Positions 19,809 through 22,383 of a stretch of 64,000 nt of DNA are shown here, one piece after another (the stretch's first letter is position 1; every line of letters begins with the position of its first letter). The translations under genes were made by a program, and so were the position numbers. Source of the stretch: Paenisporosarcina antarctica (GTDB taxonomy: Bacteria > Bacillota > Bacilli > Bacillales_A > Planococcaceae); assembly GCF_004367585.1 (NCBI RefSeq), contig NZ_CP038015.1, forward strand, positions 964,001 through 1,028,000, read 5' to 3'. The notes below the pieces were generated by a model. It saw nothing but the letters and a program-made list of their open reading frames with translations. It searched no databases and had not been told where the DNA came from.

Positions 19809-20312
19809 AAAATCCTCCCAATTCAAATTGGATGTTTTTTGCCATAAGCCTAATTCCTTCTTTCAATATACGGTAGTAATAGGTAAGCATTTGAAGTTAT
19901 CACGTGGTTTTATCATTTCTATCCTCGGTTATAAAGTTAGAATTTCCGAAGAAATCCCTTGTTTTTTCACACATTAGTGTTTATAACAAAACTTGTCGCG
20001 CCACCGAGTTAGTTGAATAACAAAAGAGCCACCTAATTCAATACTTCTATTTATAAGATTACCATATATTTGATTTAAATTATTTTATTAAAATAGAACG
20101 CGAAAAAGCACTGTTGAAATCAATGCTAATTTGTATGTGTAAATGACGTTGATTGTTACTACTTTCCAATTTATTTAAACGTTTGTACCAGCAAAATGAA
20201 TGTTACTCTGTAAGCGATTCGGTTCTTTTTAAAGGAGTAAACGATAAAATTTCAATTTCATTATAGACAAAAAAGGTCCGGGTGTAATATGTTCGATTTT
20301 TCTTAAAAATAG

Positions 20313-20363
20313 TCTCCATACTAAACACCATGAACCCCGTGTTCATGGTGTTTAGTATGGAGA
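20313..20363. repeat. Perfect 23-bp inverted repeat (hairpin)
   Basis: Positions 20313-20335 and 20341-20363 are exact reverse complements, separated by five bases (CCCGT). No T tract follows on either strand. The region 19809-20580 is otherwise without a gene; an apparent minus-strand frame here is produced by the palindrome. Confidence 0.9.
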
Positions 20364-20583
20364 ATAACATGCTAAAACAGAATTTCACGGTGGAACTTAC
20401 GCTAAACCTATAAATATAAAGGCGTGATTTCCTTTTTTAGCACACAAGAACCTCTTGAGTTTCAGTGGAAGTGAAGTTTATTCAGTGATATATTTTTGTT
20501 TAGTAATCCTATCTAAGTATTGATGTGGGTACTTTCAATTTAAATGATAGGGAGATTTTTCAAATTAAACAGGAGAATGATTG

Positions 20584-20676
20584 CAGTGGAAGGTGGCGAC
20601 TCCTGTGGGACTAGCGCGAACTGAAAGCCCCGCAGGAACGCAGTGACGAGGAGATTGAAGGCGTGCCCCACGGAAA
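20584..20676. repeat. Left part of a dispersed repeat, split by the IS element
   Basis: The stretch contains CGACTCCTGTGGGA and its partner CCCCGCAGGAACG, then CAGTGACGAGGAG and CGTGCCCCACGGAAA. This is the pattern of a noncoding repeat I recall as common in Bacillaceae (CTCCTGCGGG ... CCCGCAGGAG ... GCCCGCGGAAAGCG). It stops abruptly at GGAAA and continues at 22361. Confidence 0.65.
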
Positions 20677-20687
20677 CATACTAACAT
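20677..20687 (+). promoter_or_regulatory. -10 half of the predicted circle-junction promoter
   Basis: CATAC followed by TAACAT (20682-20687, four of six matches to TATAAT). In a circular form it would sit 17 bp after TTGACT of the right end. Confidence 0.6.
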
Positions 20688-20692
20688 TAGTA

Positions 20693-20870
20693 GCACAGAC
20701 CAAGGCCATGGTTTGTGCTACTATTTTTTTGTAGAAGTGAAGGGAAGTCGAGCGGACGCTGGGATCTGAGAATCCGAATCAGGAAACCGACTCACTTCAC
20801 ACCCTTATAAGAATCAGTTTAGTATGTTGGGTCCTCGAGACCGTGTATAAGAAAGTGGAATCAATAAGGC
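20693..20870 (+). ncRNA. Predicted IS110 bridge RNA
   Basis: The left noncoding end folds into three elements. (1) A 5' hairpin, 20689-20722. (2) A stem GAAGTG...AGTCG / CGACTCACTTC (20734-20798) whose internal loop carries GCGGACGCT (20752-20760) and GGAAA (20782-20786) around a small GGAT/ATCC hairpin. (3) A stem CCTTAT / ATAAGG (20803-20869) whose loop carries TTAGTATGTT (20819-20828) and TAAGAAA (20848-20854) around GGTC/GACC. The first loop matches the two halves of the insertion site, the second the two ends of the element. This is the architecture published for IS110 bridge RNAs (IS621). The RNA 5' end is inferred from the junction promoter, and the 3' end from the last stem. Confidence 0.75.
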
Positions 20871-20911
20871 ACTGTGATGGACTTCTATGAAGAATGAACA
20901 GGAGGAGAAGT

Positions 20912-22156
20912 ATGAAACACGTCATCGCTTTTGATGTCAGTATGGGAAAAAGCACTATGGTCCTCTACGATCACAATCAACACTGCAGGTATGAAGGGGA
21001 ATTGGAACATACTCTTACCGGTTTCCAATCGCTAAAAGAACGCATTGATTCTTTAACGGAACAGGATGGTCAGGTTCCAGAAATTGTTTTCGAAGCTACA
21101 GGTGTCTATTCGCAAGGTCTTGAGAAGTTTCTTCAGGAACACCAGTATCCTTACAGCCGGCTCAATCCATTAGAGGCTAAACTCCAAACCGCCTCCATGC
21201 GCAGGCAGAAAACGGATATCGGTGATGCCCATGAACTGGCCAGGTCGCATTTTAGGATTGATCGTCCAGAAACCTACATTCAAGAAGACTACTATGAACA
21301 GATGCGTGCGTTGGGACGCTACTATGAGGATATTGAAAAAGAACTCGGTCAACATTCTAATCGGTTGCACGCTTTCCTACAGTTGAGCTTTCCAACGCTC
21401 GAAAAAGTGTTTTCGAAGAGTTCCATTTTGTTCTTAAATATCGTGAAGCTCTTCCCGCACCCGGCCTATTTAGGAGGACTGTCAAATGAGGAGTTATGCG
21501 ATCAAATCAAACGTGCAACACGCAAAAACTTATCTGCCAAACAAGCGGAAGAGAAAGCAACTTTACTTCTCATGGCTGTTAAAAATTCCTACTCGGCTAT
21601 TGGACCGAAAGATGTGCGATGTCAACATTTGAAGCAATATGCCAAACGCATTCAGGAACTACGGGTTCAAAAAAAGGAAATCATCAAACAGATGGTCGAC
21701 CTTTCCAAAGATCGAGTGGAATTTCAAGTGCTCAAATCCTTTCCAGGAATCGGTGAAAACACCGCCGTTCAAATCCTTGGCGAGTTAGGTGACATCCGTC
21801 GTTTTCAAAATTCGAAACAAATCAATGCGTACGCAGGAATCGATATCCAACGGTATCAATCAGGCAAACTCCAACATCAGGATAAAATCAATAAAAGAGG
21901 AAACAGAAGACTGCGCAAAATCCTGTTCCAAATGGTCAGGTCTATGATCTCCTTGCGGGCAAAGACCCAAAATACGATTGTGGATTATTACGACAAATTA
22001 AAAAAGCAACCCAATGGAAAGCTCCATAAGGTTGCGATGATTGCCTGTATGAATAAGTTCTTGAAAGTTGCATTTCACCTTATCCAAAATGGCATCCTGT
22101 ACCGGTACGAATCAGCAGTGTTTCGTAACACGATTCCTCTAACTATAGCACAATAG
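20912..22156 (+). CDS. IS110-family transposase (DEDD recombinase)
   Basis: Catalyses RNA-guided excision and insertion of the element. Seen: RuvC-like N-domain with Asp8 (AFDVSMGK), Glu61 (FEATGVY), Asp102 and Asp105 (KTDIGDAHELA), a coiled middle region, and the C-terminal Transposase_20 domain (SFPGIGENTAVQILGELGD) with the probable catalytic Ser317 in RYQSGK. ATG at 20912 is chosen for AGGAGGAG upstream; the ATG at 20894 lies before that site. 414 residues, no internal stop, so probably active. Confidence 0.93.
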   Translation: MKHVIAFDVSMGKSTMVLYDHNQHCRYEGELEHTLTGFQSLKERIDSLTEQDGQVPEIVFEATGVYSQGLEKFLQEHQYPYSRLNPLEAKLQTASMRRQKTDIGDAHELARSHFRIDRPETYIQEDYYEQMRALGRYYEDIEKELGQHSNRLHAFLQLSFPTLEKVFSKSSILFLNIVKLFPHPAYLGGLSNEELCDQIKRATRKNLSAKQAEEKATLLLMAVKNSYSAIGPKDVRCQHLKQYAKRIQELRVQKKEIIKQMVDLSKDRVEFQVLKSFPGIGENTAVQILGELGDIRRFQNSKQINAYAGIDIQRYQSGKLQHQDKINKRGNRRLRKILFQMVRSMISLRAKTQNTIVDYYDKLKKQPNGKLHKVAMIACMNKFLKVAFHLIQNGILYRYESAVFRNTIPLTIAQ

Positions 22157-22342
22157 CCCCTGCGAAAAAAACAGAAATCGTGAGGTTTATTTACTATGCT
22201 TATTTTTTCGGTTCCGTGTGTTAAATCATGATTTCTGAGGGTATAGTGAAGCCAAATATCTTTTAACAAGCGACGGAACAGAAGTCAACCGCTTACTATT
22301 TCATTTTCACTATTTTTTTCTGAAAAAGAAATGGGAAAACTC

Positions 22343-22360
22343 TTGACTAGTGGTAAGAAA
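22343..22360 (+). promoter_or_regulatory. -35 half of the predicted circle-junction promoter
   Basis: TTGACT (22343-22348) lies 12 bases from the right end. When the ends join, 12 + 5 bases give a 17-bp spacer to TAACAT of the left end. Confidence 0.6.
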
Positions 22361-22383
22361 GCGTCCGCCTGAAACGGAAATCC
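22361..22383. repeat. Right part of the split dispersed repeat
   Basis: GCGTCCGCCTGAAACGGAAA continues the repeat interrupted at 20676. In family copies that I recall, GCGGAAAGCG is followed by a similar tail ending in CGGAAATC. Joined to the left half it restores CACGGAAAGCGTCCGC. Confidence 0.6.

Follow-up and report, generated by a model that had tools for sequence, protein, structure and literature searches.

Does the noncoding left end of an IS110-family element in Paenisporosarcina antarctica encode an RNA that could guide the element's own recombinase, and how does its arrangement compare with those described for IS110 and IS1111 elements? The element lies within a 64,000-nucleotide (nt) stretch of the genome (contig NZ_CP038015.1, positions 964,001 to 1,028,000; hereafter the window, to which all coordinates refer unless stated otherwise). 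Our reading, which we hold with a probability of roughly 0.88, is that this insertion sequence belongs to the IS110 family and encodes a DEDD/serine recombinase together with its own bridge RNA, which pairs with a target repeat and with the joined element ends. The element and its insertion site are laid out as follows.

20677..22360, forward strand: IS110-family element (1684 bp)
20666..20676, forward strand: left target half CCCCACGGAAA, its last bases being the core AA; joined flanks correspond to uninterrupted repeat copies such as L208
22361..22368, forward strand: right target half GCGTCCGC, as in intact CGGAAAGCGTCC sites of the genome
20675-20676 and 22359-22360: core dinucleotide AA, one of the two copies being the element's own

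The host genome holds three identical 1684-bp copies of the element, with differing flanks beyond the target, and these are its only matches to PF01548. Each of the three interrupts a copy of one intergenic repeat, at ...CGGAAA|GCGTCC..., and a pattern search of the genome found 39 intact CGGAAAGCGTCC target sites but none for a reversed control pattern. The uninterrupted site L208 is nearly identical to the joined flanks in the window across ~100 bases; together with the 39 intact sites, this match therefore fixes the element junctions well. Insertion occurs without target duplication past the shared core bases. The initial annotation had proposed a specificity of the element's own, and its target is indeed an abundant intergenic repeat of the host genome.

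Four short segments of the left end match the insertion site or the element ends:

20752..20760, forward strand: target-loop 5′ guide GCGGACGCT, complementary to the right target half plus core; covaries with the right flank
20782..20786, forward strand: target-loop 3′ guide GGAAA, equal to the left target half; covaries with the left flank
20819..20828, forward strand: donor-loop 5′ guide TTAGTATGTT, exactly complementary to the left end plus core
20848..20854, forward strand: donor-loop 3′ guide TAAGAAA, equal to the right end

All four were found exactly where the initial annotation had placed them. The 9-nt guide GCGGACGCT is the exact reverse complement of A20676 plus 22361-22368, and GGAAA is identical to 20672-20676. 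Similarly, the 10-nt guide TTAGTATGTT is the exact reverse complement of 22359-22360 plus 20677-20684, and TAAGAAA is identical to 22354-22360. Dinucleotide-preserving shuffling of the 178-nt stretch (20000 rounds) produced the 9-mer three times and the 10-mer three times; the real sequence has both, in matched loops with matching 3′ guides. These counts agree with the earlier judgement that chance matches are unlikely, and covariation across relatives settles the matter.

For this comparison, we set guide against flank in related copies for which both ends were found, and collapsed 91 elements to 13 guide clusters so that relatives were not counted twice. Across the 13 clusters, the 5′ target guide matched the right flank at 7.2 of 8 positions against 4.9 after permutation (z 8.0), and the 3′ target guide likewise tracked the left flank (z 6.1), with 0/20000 permutations reaching the observed value in either case. 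With 27 distinct guides, the corresponding scores were 7.22/8 against 4.69 (z 11.1) and 6.56 against 5.44 (z 7.2), each with 0/2000 permutations. When the same test was run with the IS621 guide order, these elements scored at chance (z 0.9 and 0.0). One could still suppose that the matches reflect chance or the palindromy of the target repeat, and that the left end is simply a conserved leader or terminator of the transposase mRNA; the repeat is partly palindromic, and a terminator-like hairpin is present. We find this hardly credible, given the permutation result and the fact that in relatives the guides change with unrelated targets, non-repeat sites included. Separately, two related elements in different genomes (L014 and L041) share their insertion flanks (...GGTAGAAATCCTAAA | AAAGGCTATGG...); the flanks resemble an IS3-family reading frame, and the guides of both elements match the site.

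The donor loop tracks the element ends in the same manner. At the right end, TAAGAAA is accompanied by the 3′ guide TAAGAAA in 50 copies and TAGGAAA by TAGGAAA in 8, and at the left end the variant CAGACTAA of L035 is accompanied by the 5′ guide TTAGTCTG. These paired changes bear on a second explanation, in which the RNA guides target choice only, the protein recognizes the ends through subterminal inverted repeats, and the donor-loop matches are a by-product. Those repeats are well conserved, and the ends hardly vary, leaving donor-guide covariation to be based on few changes; since the changes at both ends are nevertheless mirrored in the guides, we regard this explanation as improbable.

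We next consider the structure in which the guides are embedded.

20688..20730, forward strand: 5′ stem-loop followed by seven T, either terminator-like or the bridge RNA 5′ stem-loop; conserved 15-bp helix
20731..20890, forward strand: predicted bridge RNA body with two internal loops, its extent suggested by the outer helix

An alignment of the left ends of 30 related elements (mean identity 81%) gave a consensus structure in which a 5′ stem-loop and its T-run precede an outer helix that encloses two internal loops. Over 51 pairs, 98.2% of cells were standard pairs, against 94.8% in shuffled alignments, and double-sided changes occurred in 17 pairs against 5.6; sliding the partner by one column lowered pairing to ~40%. 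The target and donor loops are thus real internal loops of a conserved structure. Within the 5′ stem-loop, 98% of cells of the 15-bp helix are kept over the 30 sequences, five pairs showing double-sided changes; the hairpin and its seven T are conserved with compensatory changes in all 30. Positioned after a putative circle-junction promoter and before the guide loops, this hairpin may be a terminator that shields the element or an attenuator, or simply the 5′ stem-loop of the bridge RNA. Rfam holds no family matching the left-end RNA. A covariance search, as the initial annotation had suggested, detected the RNA in 49/399 Bacilli genomes from several families (model R1, E up to 1e-4), an upper figure for complete elements as the listing includes short and antisense fragments. 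Overall, flanks that covary with the guides and a conserved structure, the two points on which the annotation could have failed, both support an IS110 bridge RNA with target and donor loops; its transcription and action are predicted from sequence.

The protein encoded downstream fits this picture.

20912..22156, forward strand: transposase/recombinase gene, 414 amino acids, with ATG at 20912 after AGGAGG at 20900-20905; PF01548 and PF02371

It carries both IS110-family domains, DEDD_Tnp_IS110 (PF01548) and Transposase_20 (PF02371). An alignment with IS621 shows that D8, E61, D102, D105 and the serine of RYQSG (the SG motif) are retained, and the nearest sequence matches among solved structures are ISCro4 and IS621. 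Judged by these domains and residues, the transposase is an IS110-family DEDD/serine recombinase; by homology, it would assemble into a ribonucleoprotein, cleave DNA and carry out recombination.

The order of the guides departs from that of IS621. The IS621 RNA has a 5′ guide that matches the left half and a 3′ guide complementary to the right half (PMC11208160), an order that we confirmed by hand reading of IS621 plasmid copies; ISEc21, another IS110 element, shares it, and IS1111 elements show the reverse (PMC11187229). The window element has the IS1111 order, with the top-strand match 5′ of the bottom-strand match, where the IS110 group (IS621, ISEc21) has the bottom-strand match first. The initial annotation gave this order correctly but overlooked both its reversal relative to IS621 and ISEc21 and its agreement with IS1111.

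By other features, the element is mixed. The DEDD/serine domains and a two-loop noncoding end matching target and donor, which define the IS110 family broadly, are both present. Its long noncoding region lies upstream of the transposase, as in the IS110 group and in all clade relatives examined, and not downstream as in the IS1111 group. Its subterminal inverted repeats with 7/3-nt extensions are those of the IS1111 group, though shorter than the usual 11-13 bp, and its 414-residue transposase falls outside the IS1111 transposases (330-350 residues). Reversed order was also seen in relatives from several Bacilli families, including a Lactiplantibacillus element whose transposase is 35% identical, while a Cytobacillus solani group and an Enterococcus faecium group combine an upstream RNA with the IS621 order. 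In the E. faecium elements (L197-L200), the 5′ guide TTTCCTCCT is the complement of a ribosome-binding site, so their targets may lie a short way upstream of start codons. ISSso6, ISEc45, ISEc20, S. aureus L097 and L. plantarum L100 stand outside the guide-order comparison; for ISSso6 and ISEc45, the upstream sequences used as queries hit mainly IS100 and ISEc23.

The reversed-order elements fall into a single clade (99/98) in a tree built from 27 rows. The Cytobacillus elements with IS621 order are its sister group (98/97), and the tree requires guide order to have changed twice. Could the window element instead be a plain IS1111-group element whose noncoding region has moved upstream, as in exceptions noted for some ISfinder entries, so that its guide order is normal for that group? 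It does resemble IS1111 elements in its guide order, its subterminal inverted repeats and its 7/3-nt extensions (PMC11187229). The 414-residue transposase and its placement beside an IS621-order group speak against such an origin, as does an upstream RNA in all examined reversed-order elements of the clade. A tree constrained to join the clade with IS4321 and its relatives is worse by 40 log units and fails the approximately unbiased (AU) test at p 0.0003, a somewhat optimistic value as the group was named after the first tree was seen. We therefore consider an IS1111 identity unlikely. Rather, guide order probably varies independently of where the RNA lies and of the IS110/IS1111 split, a large Bacilli clade of the IS110 group having flipped its DNA ends relative to the RNA and recombinase cassette without any link to IS1111. 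If so, the RNA's frame, not the gene's, sets strand-cleavage order and junction polarity.

The junctions themselves reveal which core copy comes from the target. Among 84 distinct sites of the reversed-order clade, the left-junction core is AA in all 84 and the right-junction core differs in 15 (Fisher 3e-5), in 14 of these at the last base; the right-junction core is therefore target-derived. Cytobacillus IS621-order copies, few in number, show a variable left and a constant right junction. In IS621, core position 9 must be T and position 8 may change (PMC11208158). In the RNA's frame, the core of the reversed-order clade is TT and those 14 sites vary at position 8. The clade thus obeys the IS621 rule when read from the RNA, and would break it when read from the gene. 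On the simplest account, the RNA-DNA geometry has stayed that of IS621, with a long 5′ guide whose end lies on an N-T core (TT in this case), and the DNA ends are inverted relative to the cassette of RNA and transposase. In this mechanism, the target loop would pair with the repeat (...GGAAA|GCGTCCGC) and the donor loop with the joined ends (TAAGAAA|CATACTAA); the RNA would thereby bring circle junction and repeat together for recombination at the 2-nt core.

The element ends carry further features relevant to such a circle:

20682..20691, forward strand: left subterminal inverted repeat TAACATTAGT, 8/10 match with the right repeat
22346..22355, reverse strand: right subterminal inverted repeat, reverse complement TACCACTAGT
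22343..22348, forward strand: candidate -35 box TTGACT of a circle-junction promoter; TTGAC lies equally far from the right end in relatives
20682..20687, forward strand: candidate -10 box TAACAT of the same putative promoter

The subterminal repeats are ~10 bp long, with 8/10 positions identical here and at most 9/10 in relatives, and the terminal extensions measure 7 and 3 nt, counting the core at the left. Their distribution suggests that repeats and extensions go with guide order, not with RNA position. The predicted circle junction, TAAGAAACATACTAA, would space TTGACT and TAACAT by 17 nt, a sequence match that makes this a candidate promoter. At another place in the host genome, an orphan 54-bp right end of a related element (L004, G000:C1:2339585-2339638; 93% identical, ...TAATGGTAAGAAA) persists, flanked by GCTTTCATG, not GCGTCC. 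Outside the element, positions 20310-20366 contain an almost perfect inverted repeat of 26 bp whose loop is 5 nt long (CTCCATACTAAACACCATGAAC...).

Several points weigh against our reading. If the hairpin and T-run act as a real terminator, transcription from the circle would be restricted. A-rich left flanks weaken the 3′ guide test, many copies have related guides so that independence rests on the 13 clusters, and one cluster member has a truncated right flank. Finally, the deeper branches that separate IS110 groups have weak support (66/83), so that either guide order may be ancestral.

Within the searchable open literature, we did not find this exact configuration described, though an account of it may exist elsewhere. 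According to the published contrast, the RNAs of IS110 and IS1111 elements are opposite both in guide order and in position. This clade pairs IS1111 order with IS110 RNA position and has an IS621-order sister group, which makes close relatives available for studying polarity. Moreover, the core base at each junction provides a rule for telling recombinase polarity from sequence alone, and the clade is a source of compact, naturally diverse Gram-positive bridge recombinases with readable guides.

Compared with IS621 (PMC11208160, PMC11208158), the window element shares a DEDD/serine recombinase, an RNA upstream of the gene with a 5′ stem-loop, a target loop followed by a donor loop, a long 5′ and shorter 3′ guide overlapping a 2-nt core, and insertion into extragenic repeats. 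It differs in its reversed guide order relative to the ends, its AA core in gene orientation (TT in the RNA frame), its target-derived core at the right junction, its longer transposase (414 against 326 residues) and its ~10-bp subterminal inverted repeats. With the IS1111 seekRNA elements ISEc11, ISPa11 and IS4321 (PMC11187229), it shares a top-strand complement before the bottom-strand match, as well as subterminal inverted repeats and 7/3-nt terminal extensions; in contrast, their RNA lies downstream of the gene, and the window transposase is long and lies outside the IS1111 clade. The nearest tree group with determined order, the Cytobacillus solani plasmid IS110 elements (L098/L108), likewise has an upstream RNA that the same covariance model detects, but with IS621 guide order, a variable core at the left junction and short subterminal repeats.
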